Assembly: GCF_023702065.1 (NCBI RefSeq)
Contig: NZ_QFDM01000002.1
Coordinates: 124,001 to 188,000 of the forward strand
DNA length: 64,000 nt
Direction of reading: 5' to 3'
Origin: Methanoculleus oceani
GTDB lineage: Archaea; Halobacteriota; Methanomicrobia; Methanomicrobiales; Methanoculleaceae
The position numbers were made by a program, and so were the translations under genes. Positions 9,143-52,033 of this stretch are shown here, in pieces (position 1 is the stretch's first letter; each line of letters opens with the position of its first letter). The notes under the pieces are model-generated. The model was not told the origin of the DNA. It ran no database searches and saw only the letters and a list, made by a program, of their open reading frames with translations.

Positions 9143-11551
9143 TTACGGGCCCCTGTCGCCCCCGGCCTTCCGGAGGGTGAACCGGAACGCCGCACCCTCC
9201 TCCGGGTGGCCCGGGACGCGGTCCTCGACCCAGATTCTGCCGCCGTAGCGTGCGGTGAGCATCCGGCAGATCGAGAGGCCGAGACCATGGCTTCCTCGCC
9301 TGCCGCCCTCCCGCTCGAACCGGAAGAAGATGGTCTCCTTCGCGTCCTCCGGGATACCGGGGCCGTTGTCGGCGACCGTGACGATGACGGTCCCCTCATC
9401 CAGGCTCTCGACCGTAACCGTGACCTCGACACACTTTCCCCCGTACTTTGCGGCGTTACCGATGAGGTTCGTGAAGACCTCGGGGAGGAGGTCGTCGGCG
9501 AGGACCATCACGTCCGGCCCGCCGTAGGTGATACGGGCGTCGGGGAAGTGGGCGATCTCCTCACGGATCACGTCGTGGAGGCCAAGAGGCGTAAGTCCTG
9601 CCCGACTCTCGTGGATCTTCCGGATAGTGGCGACGTTCGCGGTGATCTCGATACTCTTCTTGATCCCGGCCTTCAATTTCCGGGCATGCCGGGCCGGCTC
9701 TCCCTCGAGTTCGTCGATGAGAATGTCGGCATAAATGTTTGCGACGTTGTCGGCGTTCCGGATATCGTGCGTAAGGATATCGAGGTAGAGGTTTGCCTCC
9801 CGGTTTGCCACCTCAAGCCTCCGGTAGAGCATCCCCCGCATGATGCCGGCCCCGATCTCCCGGCCGACCGCCTCGAGGAGCGCGCGCTCGTCATGGGAGA
9901 ACGATCCCCGGTCCCTGCTCCCGATGAGGAGCGCCCCGACGACATCGGACTCGACGACGAGCGGGATGCAGGCGAGTGCGGCAAGCCCGAGTTCCCGGAG
10001 GAGGCGGGACCCGGAGGTGTTCGGCGCCCGGTCCTGTTCAAGGTAGCAGGGATGGCCGGTGGCGAGGGTGTCGGCGAACGACACTCCCAGGATGTTCCCT
10101 GCCGGATCCAGGTACGCATCCGGCATGTTCCGCCGGCACTGGAGGGTGGCCTCGCCCCGTCCGGCATCGAGACGGTAGATAGCGCCGCCGTCGTAGCCGA
10201 GGAGGTCGAGCGTCTGGTTGAGTGCCGTCTCCAGCAGTTCTCCCGGCAGATGGGCCGATGCGGATGTGGCGATGATCCGATTCAGCAGCAGGAGGTGGCG
10301 GTTCCGTGCCTGCAGCTGCTCCTCCGCCAGTTTCCGGTGGGTGACGTCCCGTATAACGACCTGGACCGCGGGCCGGCCCTCAAAGAACGTCCGTGTGCCC
10401 CTCCCCTCGATGGGGACCGTCGTCCCGTCAACCCTGACAACCAGCAGTTCGATGAGCGGCGTCTGCTCCCCCTGCAGGTCCCGTGCGGTGAAGGCCTCGA
10501 CGGTGCTCCGGGTGTCGGGGTGGACGATATCGAGGATCGCTTTCCCGAGGACCTCCTCCGGGCATGAAGCGCCGAGCAGCCTCACGCCGGCGGGGTTGAT
10601 GAATATGATCTTCCCGTCGCGGTGGATCATGGTCGCCTCGGCGGAGAGTTCGACAAGCGATCGATACTTCTCCTCGCTCTCCCGGAGTTGCGCCTCCATC
10701 CGTTTCATGGGGGTGATGTCCTGAACCCCCACAAGGAACCCCCGGCAGGTGCCGTCGGCGTTGACGATCGGGGTGGTCGCCATCAGCGTATGGACACGGG
10801 CGCCGTCTTTACGGATCAGATCGATCTCAAAGACTTCGTGCATGTTCCGGCCCAGGTTCTGCAGATACTCTCCAAGGCATCCGGCGCCCGTCTCATCGAC
10901 GAGCGCGGAGACCGGCAATCCTATGATCTCAGTGACCGGGTAGCCGACGATATCGGCCATTCTCTGGTTGGCAAAGACCGCGACACCCTCTCTGTCGATC
11001 AGCCCGATGCCTTCGTTGAGGTTCTCGACGAGGAACCGGTACCTGTCCTCGCTCTCCCGCAGGATCTCCTCTATCCGCCTCTGTTTGGGGGTATCCGCAG
11101 GCCTTCCGGGCACCGGTCCCGGGAGGATCGGGGCGTCAGCAACAGAACCGCCCCGGAGGTCGGATGATTCGAAAGAGAGACGAACGATCCGATTTCCGCG
11201 AAGCGGACCTTCATGCACAGCCCGGCACAAGCAGCGGACGCGTTTCTCCCCGCTCCCGGGCGACCGCAGCGTGCACAGGACATCGGCAGCCCGGGAGCGG
11301 CCGGAGAGGAACGAAAAGATCTCGGCCCTGCCCGACTCCTCGCAGATACGGGTTACCAGGGCCCGGCGGACGAACAGATCCGCATCGGTCTCACATAGTG
11401 CGTCCCGGTCGATGTCGAGGAGGTGCCGGAGATGCTTGTTGATGCAGGCCACCCGGTTGTCGGGGTTGATGATGAGCAGCCCCTCGTCGAACGCGTCCAG
11501 GATGCCGGAGAGGGCGAGGTTATCGCCGTGTGCGGGTGTGCATTCATGCAT
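9143..11551 (-). CDS. Soluble PAS/PAS/PAS/GAF sensor histidine kinase
   Basis: An 802-aa cytoplasmic kinase. An N-terminal PAS-like region (ILDAFDEGLLIINPDNRV) is followed by two clearer PAS domains (about 170-290 and 290-410) and a GAF domain (about 425-580). The DHp helix then contains DILTHDIRNADN, with His as the likely phospho-acceptor. The HATPase carries NLIGNAAKYGG, DNGPGIP and GLGLSI. The ATG at 11551 is preceded by GAGGAAGGTGA at suitable spacing. No receiver or output domain is present. The ligand cannot be told from sequence. Confidence 0.88.
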   Translation of the reverse strand: MHECTPAHGDNLALSGILDAFDEGLLIINPDNRVACINKHLRHLLDIDRDALCETDADLFVRRALVTRICEESGRAEIFSFLSGRSRAADVLCTLRSPGSGEKRVRCLCRAVHEGPLRGNRIVRLSFESSDLRGGSVADAPILPGPVPGRPADTPKQRRIEEILRESEDRYRFLVENLNEGIGLIDREGVAVFANQRMADIVGYPVTEIIGLPVSALVDETGAGCLGEYLQNLGRNMHEVFEIDLIRKDGARVHTLMATTPIVNADGTCRGFLVGVQDITPMKRMEAQLRESEEKYRSLVELSAEATMIHRDGKIIFINPAGVRLLGASCPEEVLGKAILDIVHPDTRSTVEAFTARDLQGEQTPLIELLVVRVDGTTVPIEGRGTRTFFEGRPAVQVVIRDVTHRKLAEEQLQARNRHLLLLNRIIATSASAHLPGELLETALNQTLDLLGYDGGAIYRLDAGRGEATLQCRRNMPDAYLDPAGNILGVSFADTLATGHPCYLEQDRAPNTSGSRLLRELGLAALACIPLVVESDVVGALLIGSRDRGSFSHDERALLEAVGREIGAGIMRGMLYRRLEVANREANLYLDILTHDIRNADNVANIYADILIDELEGEPARHARKLKAGIKKSIEITANVATIRKIHESRAGLTPLGLHDVIREEIAHFPDARITYGGPDVMVLADDLLPEVFTNLIGNAAKYGGKCVEVTVTVESLDEGTVIVTVADNGPGIPEDAKETIFFRFEREGGRRGSHGLGLSICRMLTARYGGRIWVEDRVPGHPEEGAAFRFTLRKAGGDRGP

Positions 11552-46298: not shown

Positions 46299-46997
46299 AT
46301 GAATGCAGCAGAGCAGGCAGCGTCGAAGCAAAACGCAGGTTACCTGGCGGCCGGTATGGTCGAAGACGGGATGGTCGTCGGCCTCGGCACCGGATCGACC
46401 GTCTTCTTTGCGATGGAACGACTGGGCGAGCGGATCGCTACGGACGGCCTTTCCATCGCCGGCGTCCCGACATCCTATCAGGCGGCCATCAGGGCACGCC
46501 AGTACGGCATCCCGCTCACGAGCCTCGACGAGCATCCCGAGCTCGATATCGCCATCGACGGGGCCGACCAGGTCGACCCTGCTCTCCGCCTGATCAAGGG
46601 GCGCGGAGCGGCGCTCCTCCGTGAGAAGTGCGTCTGCGACGCGGCTAAAAAAGTGCTCATCGTCGTCGACCCGACGAAGATGGTCGATACCCTGGATGCT
46701 CCCGTACCGGTCGAGGTGCTCCCGTTTGCCTCTGCAGGAGTCTTCCGGCGCCTCACTCTTCTCGGTGCCGTCCCGGTCGTCCGGGAAGGGGTGAAGAAAG
46801 ACGGTCCGGTCGTCACCGATAACGGCAACTTCATCCTCGACTGCGACTTTAAGGCGATCGCCGACCCCGGACGCCTGGAAGCGGAGATAGCCTCGATACC
46901 CGGTGCGCTGGAGTGCGGCCTGTTTTGCACTTACGGAGAAAAGATAACGGTTATTGTCGGTGAGGGGAAGGGTTGCCGCGTCGTATCACTGCAATGA
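46299..46997 (+). CDS. rpiA: Ribose-5-phosphate isomerase A
   Basis: A 232-aa enzyme interconverting ribose 5-phosphate and ribulose 5-phosphate. GLGTGSTV, DIAIDGADQVD with the catalytic Asp, and KGRGAALLREK are all conserved. The ATG at 46299 was chosen because AAGGAG lies ten bases upstream; the frame also opens with ATG at 46278, directly after the surE stop. Its 3' end overlaps the convergent regulator gene by 12 bp. Confidence 0.95.
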   Translation: MNAAEQAASKQNAGYLAAGMVEDGMVVGLGTGSTVFFAMERLGERIATDGLSIAGVPTSYQAAIRARQYGIPLTSLDEHPELDIAIDGADQVDPALRLIKGRGAALLREKCVCDAAKKVLIVVDPTKMVDTLDAPVPVEVLPFASAGVFRRLTLLGAVPVVREGVKKDGPVVTDNGNFILDCDFKAIADPGRLEAEIASIPGALECGLFCTYGEKITVIVGEGKGCRVVSLQ

Positions 46998-47366
46998 TAT
47001 GCATTCCCGCATCTTCTGGATAAGGTCCAGCTGGTGCCGGGCTTCTCTCTTCTTTTCCTTCTCGATCGTATCCATGATCTCGGTTATCGAACGGGAAAGC
47101 GTATAGATCTTCACCGGCCTCCCTTTGCTCTCCGATTTGCTCTCGCGGGTGTCGATCCAGTCACATTCCTTGAGGTAGCGCATGGCGATGCTGACTTCAG
47201 GCTGGCGGAGATCGGTGCCCCGCTCGATGTCCCGGGATGTTGCTTCCTCGGCGTTCGCAAGATATACGAGCACTTTGGAGACGTTTCTCTTGATCCCGAT
47301 ACCTATGAGGAGCTCGGCGAGTTCTTCATCGCGTGGCGTAAAATACCGTACCTTGTCTGACCTCAT
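46986..47366 (-). CDS. Winged-helix transcriptional regulator
   Basis: A 126-aa DNA-binding protein. VSKVLVYLANAEEATSRDIERGTDLRQPEVSIAMRYL is a helix-turn-helix with recognition helix around QPEVSIAMRYL, followed by a wing (GRPVKIYTLS) and a C-terminal coiled-coil-like helix (EKEKKREARHQLDLI) for dimerisation. It resembles ArsR/TrmB-like archaeal regulators. GGTGG lies before the ATG. A palindrome in its own promoter suggests autoregulation. Confidence 0.85.
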   Translation of the reverse strand: MRSDKVRYFTPRDEELAELLIGIGIKRNVSKVLVYLANAEEATSRDIERGTDLRQPEVSIAMRYLKECDWIDTRESKSESKGRPVKIYTLSRSITEIMDTIEKEKKREARHQLDLIQKMRECISLQ

Positions 47367-47402: not shown

Positions 47403-47667
47403 TGACTATAAAAATATTATTATTTCAATGGGAGATCCGGCGATTGTGATAGTTTTTAGAGAATGGATGAAGCATCGAACTGATAAGATCGAACTTTTTT
47501 TCACCGGACGGCGATTCCCCCGGCAGTGAGGAGTGCTCTCCGGGGGAAGGGCGGCAGTCCGGGTGGTGCGGCCCCGTTCCCGTCCACGGTGTGGTCGCGA
47601 GACCGGAAGATGGCGGTCACGGCATCCCGCCGGGGAACCATGCGTGTCCGGATAGGGTTCCTGGCGG

Positions 47668-47779
47668 CCCTTACGGGATCGACGGCCCTACGGCCCTTAC
47701 GGGATCGACGGCCCTACGGCCCTTACGGGATCGACGGCCCTACGGCCCTTACGGGATCGACGGCCCTACGGCCCTTACG
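47668..47779. repeat. Tandem repeat, four copies of a 26-bp unit
   Basis: Units start at 47668, 47694, 47720 and 47746 (unit beginning CCCTTACGGGATCGACGG), with a partial fifth copy to about 47779. The copies are essentially identical. The period is not a multiple of three, so it is not coding. It lies just beyond the tbp terminator in a gap without genes. Confidence 0.85.
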
Positions 47780-47785
47780 AATTCC

Positions 47786-47792
47786 AAAAAAA
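47786..47792 (-). terminator. T-tract after tbp
   Basis: Seven T on the minus strand, 20 bases after the tbp stop; a standard archaeal terminator signal. Confidence 0.5.
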
Positions 47793-47812: not shown

Positions 47813-48376
47813 TCAGATGAGACCGAGATTGGAGAGTTCGGATAGGATACGCTGTACCGCCCGCCTGGCATCCTCGGGCTGCTTGCCGCCCGTGATGATC
47901 AGTTTGCCGGACCCGAAGAGGAGGACGACCACCTTCGGATCGTCGAGCCGGTAGACCAGCCCGGGAAACTGTTCGGGCTCGTACTCGATCTTGTCCAGGT
48001 TGAAGCCCACGGCAATCTTATTTAAGTTGATCGGCGTCCCGAGGTCTGCGGACGTGACGATATTCTGGATCTTGTAGGTCAGGTTTTCGGGGATATCGAT
48101 GTTGAGTGCCCGCAACTGGTCGCCAAGGATCTGCAGACCGCGTGAGAGGCTGTCGATGCTCTTTGCACCGGTCAGGACGACCTTGCCGGAACCGAAGACG
48201 AGCGCAGCGATCTTCGGATCCTGCATCCGGAGAACGACGCCGGGAAACCGTTTTTTATTGTATTCCGCGTCCTTCAGCTGGGAGGCAAGGGAGTGAAGAT
48301 CAAGAGAATCGGTCACTTTCGCTGAAGCAACGATGTTTTCTATCTTGAGGGACTCCTCGGGTTTGTGATCATTCAT
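47813..48376 (-). CDS. tbp: TATA-box-binding protein
   Basis: A 187-aa protein of two homologous ~90-residue repeats, the saddle that bends promoter DNA. The repeats carry KKRFPGVVLRMQDPKIAALVFGSGKVVLTG-like and EQFPGLVYRLDDPKVVVLLFGSGKLIITG-like cores, in which the paired FPG and FGSGK motifs are diagnostic. Acidic N-terminus, normal length. It is the general initiation factor of this archaeon. Confidence 0.98.
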   Translation of the reverse strand: MNDHKPEESLKIENIVASAKVTDSLDLHSLASQLKDAEYNKKRFPGVVLRMQDPKIAALVFGSGKVVLTGAKSIDSLSRGLQILGDQLRALNIDIPENLTYKIQNIVTSADLGTPINLNKIAVGFNLDKIEYEPEQFPGLVYRLDDPKVVVLLFGSGKLIITGGKQPEDARRAVQRILSELSNLGLI

Positions 48377-48417: not shown

Positions 48418-50316
48418 CTATTCTTCCAGGGTCGAGATGTCCCCGGGGTCCATACCCAGTTCCTGCGCTTTTAAGACCCGTCTCATGATCTTGCCGCTGC
48501 GGGTTTTGGGGAGCGACTCAACGAATTCAATCTCGGACGGTATGGCGATGGGGCCGAGCGTCATCCGGACGTGGTAGACGAGGTCGTTTCTGAGTTTCTC
48601 ACCCGGCTCGCGGCCGTTCTTGAGAATGACGAAGGCCTTGATCGAGTTCCCCTTCAGGGCGTCGGGTTTTCCGATGACGGCAGCCTCCGCCACCGCATCG
48701 TGGGAGACGAGTGCGCTCTCGACCTCCGCGGTCCCGATGTTGTGCCCGGCGACGACGATCAGGTCGTCGGACCGCCCGATGACCATGATGTAGCCGTCCT
48801 CGCCCTTCACCGCAAGGTCGGCCGCCGTGTAGCATCCCGGAACGGTGTGCCAGTACTTGCGGTAGCGATCGTCGTCATTCCATATCGTCCGCATCATCGA
48901 CGGCCAGGGCTCCCTGATGACCAGGAGGCCGCCGGTGCCCGGGGCGACCGGGTTGCCTGCCATGTCGACGACGTCCGCGACGACGCCCGGGATCGGTTTT
49001 CCGGCAAACCCGGGGCGCATGGGTTCGCCGATCATCGTGGTCACCATGTGCATCCCGGTCTCGGTCTGCCACCAGGTGTCCACGATCGGGCACCGGTCTT
49101 CTCCGATGATCCGATAGAACCACTCGAACGCCTCAGGGTTGAGCGGTTCGCCGACCGACCCGAGGATACGGAGCGACGAGAGGTTGTAGCGGTTCGGCCA
49201 CTCTTCACCCACCCGCATGAACATCCGGATGGCGGTCGGGGCGGTGTAGAAGACGGTGACGCCGTACTCCTCGATGAGATTCCAGTAAGTGCCCGGGTCC
49301 GGGTAGTCGGGCGTGGCCTCCGCGATGAGGCAGGTGGCGCCGTTCAGGAGCGGGCCGTAGACACCGTAGCTGTGGCCGGTGATCCACCCGGGGTCGGCGG
49401 TGCACCAGTAGATGTCATTGTCCTTGATATCGAAGACGTGCTTCGTCGTATAGTAGGTCCCGACCATGTAGCCGCCGCAGGCATGCACGATACCCTTCGG
49501 GGACCCGGTGGTGCCGCTCGTATACAGGATGAAGAGCGGATCCTCGGCGTCCATCGCCTCAGCCGGGCACTCCCGCTCCACGCCCTTCATCAGGTCGTAG
49601 TAGTCCACCTCCATCTCGGGGTGGAGTTCCACGGGCTTGTCGGCATCGCGCCGGAGAATAACGATCCGCTCGACGCTCGGGGCGTTGACGACCGCCTCCT
49701 CAACGATGTTCTTGAGCGGGATTGCCTTGCCGCGCCGGTAGGTGACGTCGGCGGTGACGACCACCTTCGCTTCGATGCCCGTGATACGCTGGTTGAGCGC
49801 GCTGACGCCGAACCCGCCGAAGACGACCGAGTGGATCGCCCCGATACGGGCGCAGGCGAGCATCGCGATGATCTGCTCGGGCACAACCGGCATGTAGATG
49901 CAGACCCGGTCCCCCTTCCCGACGCCGAGGCGTTTCAAGCCGTTTGCGAACCGGCAGACCGCCTGGAAGAGCTGGCGGTAGGTGAAGATCCGCTCCTCCT
50001 CCTCGGTCTCTCCCCGCCACATGATCGCGACCTTGTTCCGCCGCTGGTTGTGGACGTGGCGGTCCAGGCAGTTGTGGGTGATGTTGAGTTTGGCGTTGAC
50101 GAACCACTTAGCGTACGGGAACTCCCACTCCTTCACCCTGTCCCAGGGCTGGTACCACTCAAGCTCCCCGGCAACGCTGCCCCAGAACCCGTCAGGGTCC
50201 GCCAGGAACTCCCGGTAGGCCCGGTTGTAGTCGCCGATCCATGAGTGCTCTTTAAAGCTGGCCTCGGGGGTATAGTACTTCGCCTCCTCGAGTTTGACGT
50301 TAAAATCTTCAGCCAT
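48418..50316 (-). CDS. acs: Acetyl-CoA synthetase (AMP-forming)
   Basis: A 632-aa adenylating enzyme activating acetate to acetyl-CoA with ATP. FILYTSGTTGSPKGIVHA is the phosphate-binding loop, DTWWQTETGMHM the adenine/acyl motif, and SLPKTRSGKIMRR near the C-terminus carries the catalytic Lys. The TWWQTE motif with its Trp fits short-chain acyl substrates. AAGGGG precedes the ATG. Control by the palindrome just upstream is likely. Confidence 0.96.
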   Translation of the reverse strand: MAEDFNVKLEEAKYYTPEASFKEHSWIGDYNRAYREFLADPDGFWGSVAGELEWYQPWDRVKEWEFPYAKWFVNAKLNITHNCLDRHVHNQRRNKVAIMWRGETEEEERIFTYRQLFQAVCRFANGLKRLGVGKGDRVCIYMPVVPEQIIAMLACARIGAIHSVVFGGFGVSALNQRITGIEAKVVVTADVTYRRGKAIPLKNIVEEAVVNAPSVERIVILRRDADKPVELHPEMEVDYYDLMKGVERECPAEAMDAEDPLFILYTSGTTGSPKGIVHACGGYMVGTYYTTKHVFDIKDNDIYWCTADPGWITGHSYGVYGPLLNGATCLIAEATPDYPDPGTYWNLIEEYGVTVFYTAPTAIRMFMRVGEEWPNRYNLSSLRILGSVGEPLNPEAFEWFYRIIGEDRCPIVDTWWQTETGMHMVTTMIGEPMRPGFAGKPIPGVVADVVDMAGNPVAPGTGGLLVIREPWPSMMRTIWNDDDRYRKYWHTVPGCYTAADLAVKGEDGYIMVIGRSDDLIVVAGHNIGTAEVESALVSHDAVAEAAVIGKPDALKGNSIKAFVILKNGREPGEKLRNDLVYHVRMTLGPIAIPSEIEFVESLPKTRSGKIMRRVLKAQELGMDPGDISTLEE

Positions 50317-50332
50317 GCGATTGCCCCTTATT

Positions 50333-50360
50333 ATACATTATTAATAATGTATTTTATATC
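50333..50360 (-). promoter_or_regulatory. acs promoter with perfect 20-bp palindrome
   Basis: ATACATTATT and its exact complement AATAATGTAT form a perfect 20-bp palindrome (50333-50352). It abuts a minus-strand TATA box GATATAAAAT (50351-50360) and ends 17 bases from the acs ATG. The placement between TATA box and start is typical of a repressor operator. Confidence 0.7.
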
Positions 50361-50767
50361 AACATTCTGGTTCAGGGTCCGGATGCGCCGGGAAAGGATC
50401 GTCGGGAACTGGTTGCCGGAGCCGCACCGGGAGGGGGTCCGGCTGAGCAGAATTGTGCAACTCTTGAGAGGTTTTTGGCAAATTACAGGCCACAGAGAAC
50501 GATTTTCGGGCGGGCGCCGGGATGGCTCCGGGGTTCTGCCCGGGGCGGATCGTTGCGCAATGGGGAAATTCGGCCTTCGCCCGGGATCGATAGTATACAT
50601 AGACTTCCGTCCGGGACAAAAAAGGCAGATAAAAGTAATTCAGGGTGCGCTTAGCGTGGGCGCGACAGATTGGAAACAGGCCCCCACGGGGTGAAAAATA
50701 ACCTCACAAAATCCAACAGAAAGAAAAAACCCCGGGAGGGGCAACAAATCAATAAAATGGCTCCAGC
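50361..50767. other. Gene-free stretch between acs and tfs
   Basis: I see no gene or repeat here. Frames on both strands are short and lack protein-like character. Near the right end a minus-strand T-tract (50724-50729) probably terminates the tfs message. Confidence 0.4.
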
Positions 50768-51082
50768 CTAATCGTACTCGCGCCAGGTTTTGCCGCAGGC
50801 GGTGCACCGGAAGAACCTGACTTCGCTCTCATCTGCCGCACGCAGCTGCCGCAGCCACCAGTATGCCGTCGTGCAGTCGCACTCCGGGCACTTCATGGTC
50901 GCGGTCGGAAGGGTCGCTATCTTGTCCTCTTCGTCGACGATGGTGATCTCTTTCTCCACGCGTTTGTCTGTCTTCTTTAACCGGTCCGAGTCATCGATCT
51001 CCCGGATATAGCCACATTTTTTGCATTTCAGCTGACCACCGGACGATATCATCAGGCCTTTGCACTGCGGACAGAACATCAT
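50768..51082 (-). CDS. tfs: Transcript cleavage factor TFS (TFIIS/RpoM-like)
   Basis: A 104-aa archaeal TFS. The N-terminal zinc ribbon (FCPQCKGLM...CKKCGYI) matches RNA polymerase subunit Rpb9. The C-terminal TFIIS ribbon (CPECDCTTAYWW...CTACGKTW) carries the acidic Asp-Glu pair in RAADESE that enters the polymerase active site to stimulate RNA cleavage. The first of two adjacent ATGs was chosen. Confidence 0.95.
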   Translation of the reverse strand: MMFCPQCKGLMISSGGQLKCKKCGYIREIDDSDRLKKTDKRVEKEITIVDEEDKIATLPTATMKCPECDCTTAYWWLRQLRAADESEVRFFRCTACGKTWREYD

Positions 51083-51208: not shown

Positions 51209-52033
51209 ATGAAGGATTACCTGGTGCTGATCTCCTGCATCTGCTTTCTCGCCTTCCTTATCCCGAGCAGGTTCCGGAAGTACTTTGCCCTCGGCGGGTG
51301 GGCAAGCATCGTCGGATACCTCTTCCTCGAGCTCCCCTACTACTTCTCCCTCAACAACTTCATGTACCCGGCGATAGCCCTCCTCTCGGTACCCTTCCTC
51401 TATATCACTGCAAAATACCTGCTCCGCGACGATCCCCGGGTGATGCAGATCTCGACGATAGCGGCCGTGGCGTTCCTGATCTATGCCCCTTTCGGCTACA
51501 TACCGGCACTCGGGAACTGGCTGATTGCAGTCGTCGCCGACCAGACATCCGCGGCGCTCGCGGCGGTCGGCTACCCCGTGACCTTCCAGGCCTGGAACCT
51601 GATGGAGCGCAACGGGTTCCAGACCGAGATCATCCTTGCCTGCACCGGAATCCAGAGCATCGCGATCATGCTCGGGGTAGCCTGGGGCGTGCAGTCGACG
51701 GCGAGGCAGAAGATCGCCGGCTTCCTCCTCGTCTTCCCGACGATCTATATCCTGAATATCGTCCGAAACGTCTTCGTGATCACGGCCTACACCGAGCAGT
51801 GGTTCCCCTACCTCCCCGAGATCGCCGGCAACGGCGAACTCGGTTACGAGAGTTTCTTCTGGGCGCACAACGTCATGGCAGAACTCGGGGCACTGGTATT
51901 TCTCGTGGTCCTCGCCTATGCCCTCTTCATGATCATCCCCGGGCTCGGCACCCTCGCCGACAGTCTTTACCGGCTCTATCGCGGTGAGGTTGAGCAGATC
52001 GTCCGGCCGAACGCCGGGGGACCCGAGCCCTGA
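51209..52033 (+). CDS. artA: Archaeosortase A
   Basis: A 274-aa membrane protein with about eight helices. The exosortase/archaeosortase catalytic set is present: Cys145 in LACTGIQS, Arg176 in NIVRNVFV and His210 in FFWAHNVMAE. ArtA removes the PGF-CTERM tail of surface proteins and promotes lipid attachment. No PGF-CTERM substrate is evident in this window, as expected for a trans-acting enzyme. Confidence 0.93.
   Translation: MKDYLVLISCICFLAFLIPSRFRKYFALGGWASIVGYLFLELPYYFSLNNFMYPAIALLSVPFLYITAKYLLRDDPRVMQISTIAAVAFLIYAPFGYIPALGNWLIAVVADQTSAALAAVGYPVTFQAWNLMERNGFQTEIILACTGIQSIAIMLGVAWGVQSTARQKIAGFLLVFPTIYILNIVRNVFVITAYTEQWFPYLPEIAGNGELGYESFFWAHNVMAELGALVFLVVLAYALFMIIPGLGTLADSLYRLYRGEVEQIVRPNAGGPEP

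Follow-up and report, generated by a model that had tools for sequence, protein, structure and literature searches.

Operators of MarR-type regulators are AT-centred palindromes of about 16–20 bp lying over promoters, and to our knowledge no MarR regulator of an acetyl-CoA synthetase gene (acs) is known in archaea. TrmB and TrmBL1 (Tgr) of the Thermococcales, which repress as winged-helix dimers, likewise bind palindromes, placed next to BRE/TATA or 3' of it; their targets, however, are sugar genes, not acetate genes. In OxsR of Haloferax volcanii, a small, sensorless, single-domain protein of the TrmB type, position relative to BRE/TATA goes with the sign of regulation: sites 3' of BRE/TATA are associated with repression and 5' sites with activation, with a CG-rich motif and a role in oxidative stress (PMC9426492). 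MreA (MA3302) of Methanosarcina acetivorans, a TrmB-like protein with a single winged helix, controls acetate metabolism (PMC12918732, PMC4158304). Its deletion lowers ack and pta, raises fpo and slows growth on acetate (PMC12918732); in Methanosarcina it activates acetate genes, and its targets are ack/pta and fpo rather than acs. As stated in a 2014 review, no MreA binding motif could be identified (PMC4158304). The hydrogen-using methanogens of the order Methanomicrobiales, in turn, draw on acetate for biosynthesis (for Methanoculleus, PMC11201294).

The window, that is, the whole 64,000-nucleotide stretch of the Methanoculleus oceani genome analysed here, carries an acs gene with the following surroundings.

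46986–47366, minus strand: mreA homologue, coding for a 126-aa winged-helix regulator, the leading candidate binder (NF053756 MreA, 153.6 bits, cut-off 100)
47813–48376, minus strand: tbp, TATA-box-binding protein, with its own TATA-like box (PF00352, NF001600)
48418–50316, minus strand: acs, AMP-forming acetyl-CoA synthetase (acetate–CoA ligase), 632 aa, the target gene (TIGR02188, 858.7 bits, cut-off 725)
50324–50329, minus strand: AAGGGG, probable ribosome-binding site (direct reading; G-rich in relatives)
50328–50331, minus strand: expected transcription start, about 25 bp from the TATA box (archaeal promoter geometry)
50333–50352, no strand: perfect 20-bp palindrome ATACATTATTAATAATGTAT, proposed operator (direct reading, palindrome scan)
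50335–50350, no strand: 16-bp conserved core ACATTATTAATAATGT, with an order-wide consensus near WMATKATTAATMATKW (genus promoter identity, genome-wide searches)
50355–50362, minus strand: putative TATA-like box TTGATATA of the acs promoter (present in 30/30 genus acs loci)
50363–50370, minus strand: conserved CCAGAATG at the putative BRE position (genus acs promoters, small variations)

Read along the minus strand, the order is CCAGAATG, TTGATATA, palindrome, AAGGGG and ATG, with 2 bp between the TATA-like box and the palindrome and 4 bp between the box and the 16-bp core. The original prediction of a 20-bp palindrome between TATA box and acs is exact at 50333–50352, and its distance of 17 bases to the ATG at 50316 is correct as an offset, the intervening bases numbering 16 (50317–50332). 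No other perfect palindrome of at least 16 bp occurs in the window. The further claim that such a palindrome is unlikely by chance carries modest weight in a single genome: first-order Markov sequences contain 0.22 perfect palindromes of at least 20 bp per 64 kb, and of 200,000 shuffled versions of the AT-rich acs promoter (54 bp) 25 contain one, so that the single-genome case is only moderate. The claim becomes strong once it is made comparative; the decisive evidence is the comparison across genomes. The TrmB/TGM operator motifs, TACT-N3-AGTA and TATCAC-N5-GTGATA (PMC4158304), do not match 50333–50352.

At the acs loci fetched from the genus Methanoculleus, the dyad stands at the same place in 30/30, with 4–6 bp from the end of the TATA box to the core and 13–18 bp from the core to the ATG. 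Among the 29 distinct promoters, the 16-bp core reaches a mean pairwise identity of 0.96; the flanks adjoining it have 0.79 and 0.78, the region across the acs gene start 0.58 and the DNA further upstream 0.34. The central bases of the palindrome are invariant within the genus, and outer dyad positions sometimes change symmetrically (e.g., from A-T to C-G at pair 10).

Within the genus, the site is almost confined to acs promoters. In the 2.46-Mb host genome, CATKATNNATMATG is found four times: once before the window acs and three times before acs2, a second acs gene 72% identical to it (C1:412735, 412941 and 412965). There, a tandem pair directly follows the TATA box and the third copy lies beside the ribosome-binding site; across the genus, the second acs carries up to three copies. 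The 35 genus genomes contain 78 occurrences of CATKATNNATMATG, 76 of them in acs1 or acs2 promoters, and 3 of the reversed control pattern. When up to two mismatches to the core are allowed, most genomes give two matches, at the window acs and the acs2 promoter. No local regulator was seen in the acs2 neighbourhood, which holds only CorA-like, RNase III and MFS transporter genes. The acs2 leader itself is GC-rich and about 200 nt long (L067, about 10720–10940, G000:C1), with blocks CCGGCGGGGACCGGCACC..TGCCGGCGACCG conserved in the genus; it has a consensus fold with weak covariation and no match in Rfam, and a leader RNA is possible.

In a survey of 150 Methanomicrobiales genomes, a core with one mismatch precedes acs in several families. 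The sister form TAATGATTAATCATTA is present in 13 genomes from four genera in family f5, each having exactly one mismatch-free copy, which always precedes acs; in perfect form it also stands before satP in two genomes of family f2. Methanogenium-type genomes have the variant ACATGATTAATCATGT. In six genomes of four genera (G045, G096, G070, G089, G135 and G036), the site stands before a gene for a SatP/AceTr acetate permease (PF01184), as one-mismatch variants in G089, G070, G036 and G135. In other genomes satP lies downstream of acs within the same cluster, and satP genes of a second class do not carry the site. Among 48 distinct 16-mers from these promoters, the covariation at dyad pairs 4 and 7 exceeds what column composition explains, the observed count being reached in 134/2000 and 1/2000 shuffles, respectively, which ignore relatedness; symmetric variants such as TAATGAT/ATCATTA and ACATGAT/ATCATGT exist.

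The three Methanosarcinaceae acs promoters examined (L155, L174, L176) lack the palindrome; they contain GACCTGAAA..AGGTC, in which GACCT-N6-AGGTC forms an inverted repeat upstream of the TATA box. Other families show a second conserved element, ATGCAGTGCATATGTGTT(GTGC), upstream of the acs TATA box (L216, L223, L287–L293), to which a different regulator may bind. G067, a genome from another family, has a second acs (L061, G067:C5:5932–7827) that is 88% identical to the window acs and has the same promoter, with mreA downstream at G067:C5:4640; a transfer of the acs–mreA block is likely. A weaker copy, TCATTATTGATCACGT, lies directly before an acyl-CoA synthetase gene divergent from a second tbp (L217, G022:C92, site at 314), and at the second tbp of the host genome, in the same arrangement (L218), the site is absent. 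Loose matches with CG arms (TCGTGATCGATCACGA) were dismissed as chance, being located within a coding gene, and AT-rich one-mismatch matches in G040, G044 and G018, near or within unrelated genes, are probably chance as well.

Taken together, the comparative data make it very probable that the palindrome serves as operator for a dimeric DNA-binding protein that controls acetate uptake and activation in Methanomicrobiales. As in operators, dyad symmetry is kept between species through covariation, and the site recurs before related genes and hardly elsewhere (76/78 at acs1 and acs2; satP in other genera). As in archaeal repressor sites, it lies 3' of BRE/TATA over the putative start region in all 30 loci. 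Symmetry and covariation together point to a dimeric protein. The original prediction of a control site for acetate activation is borne out by this conservation and by the near-exclusive placement before acetate genes: the orthologous acs promoters, on whose conservation it had staked itself, keep the site in 30/30 genus loci, with variants across the order, and the search that it suggested for copies near acetate genes led to acs2 and to SatP-type acetate permease genes.

The sign of regulation is read solely from the placement between TATA box and start codon. Repression is the likelier sign, and a probable one, because the site lies 3' of BRE/TATA, as in repression by OxsR. In archaeal promoters, TATA box and start site are about 25 bp apart. 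With such a start, the dyad would span roughly −22 to −3, and a bound dimer would occupy the DNA between the TATA box and the start site. It may thereby block the recruitment or the start of RNA polymerase, and would be released once acetate must be assimilated.

The symmetry could also have arisen by chance within an ordinary AT-rich promoter part, such as the start region or a second TATA box. AT-rich start regions are common and about 0.2 such palindromes are expected per 64 kb, but a part of this kind should precede many genes, and genome-wide the site is restricted to acetate genes; this origin is extremely improbable. Hardly more credible is a role in RNA, as a hairpin with which the acs mRNA would begin. 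Compensatory changes would fit a hairpin too, and folding of the 20-mer is possible (−4 kcal/mol, z −3.5); however, the structure is weak (−1.8 kcal/mol for TAATGATTAATCATTA), the genus shows no variation at the central bases, which would form the RNA loop, the distance to the TATA box hardly varies, and the acs1 dyad should sit upstream of the transcription start. An activator site, or a bidirectional one, instead of a repressor site would agree with the activation of acetate genes by MreA in M. acetivorans (PMC12918732). It is nevertheless unlikely given that the dyad follows the TATA box and overlies the expected start, a position from which regulators in archaea usually repress, and that the extra acs2 copies fall within the presumed transcribed leader.

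For the protein that binds the palindrome, two readings have to be weighed. One assigns the site tentatively to the MreA homologue, whose gene is the second downstream of acs; to this we give somewhat less than an even chance. A member of the family that controls acetate metabolism in Methanosarcina is encoded beside acs (NF053756), with a putative tie to the palindrome. Among the genes found repeatedly around acs in the loci fetched, MreA is the only regulator. All six families of the order have acs and mreA near each other, tbp standing between the two where the loci were read, and an MreA match is present in 34/35 genera, above cut-off in 120/150 genomes. In two genomes (G125 and G145), only 81–84% complete, the site is present and MreA does not exceed the cut-off, and in G080 a contig edge breaks the locus. 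The joint loss of acs and MreA (Fisher p = 1e-15 with one genus, 0.36 without it) was discounted as evidence because that single genus carries the signal. The predicted structure (pLDDT 91) has a winged helix and a long C-terminal helix and resembles TFE-alpha, MarR-type proteins and TrmBL2; the recognition helix and wing are invariant (LRQPEVSI stretch; wing KGRPVK). Against MreA as a repressor stands the opposite sign of its effect in M. acetivorans, where it raises ack/pta (PMC12918732).

Alternatively, the operator is real and its binder is not MreA but a regulator whose gene lies elsewhere in the genome, and the neighbourhood of mreA reflects an old tbp–mreA block; we regard this as marginally better than an even proposition. 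It accords with the unlinked position of acs2, and of many acs genes in other genera, relative to mreA, with the lack of such a site in Methanosarcinaceae acs promoters and with an mreA promoter without the site. The palindrome is absent from both the mreA and the tbp promoter examined, so an mreA autoregulation site was not found; an autoregulatory site in a regulator's own promoter is common, not required. The recurrence of MreA, as the sole regulator near acs in the examined loci, and its match in 34 of the 35 genera are the points that speak against a different binder.

The neighbourhood has further features. Upstream of acs are a transcription factor S gene (50768–51082, minus strand) and an exosortase-like (archaeosortase-type) gene (51209–52033, plus strand); with TFS, TBP and MreA, three genes of the transcription machinery and its regulation cluster around acs. 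A 26-bp tandem repeat, GTAAGGGCCGTAGGGCCGTCGATCCC, is present in several copies at 47660–47790 between tbp and mreA.

In the literature searched, which included few subscription papers, an acetate operator or regulon for Methanomicrobiales with consensus and targets was not found. The element is of a known kind, the archaeal operator of a small regulon, and its consensus, targets and order-wide reach are apparently new. On the operator reading, the acetate regulon is defined across the order, its consensus is precise, and its candidate regulator can be tested; the family of this candidate steers acetate use in Methanosarcina and had no known DNA motif.
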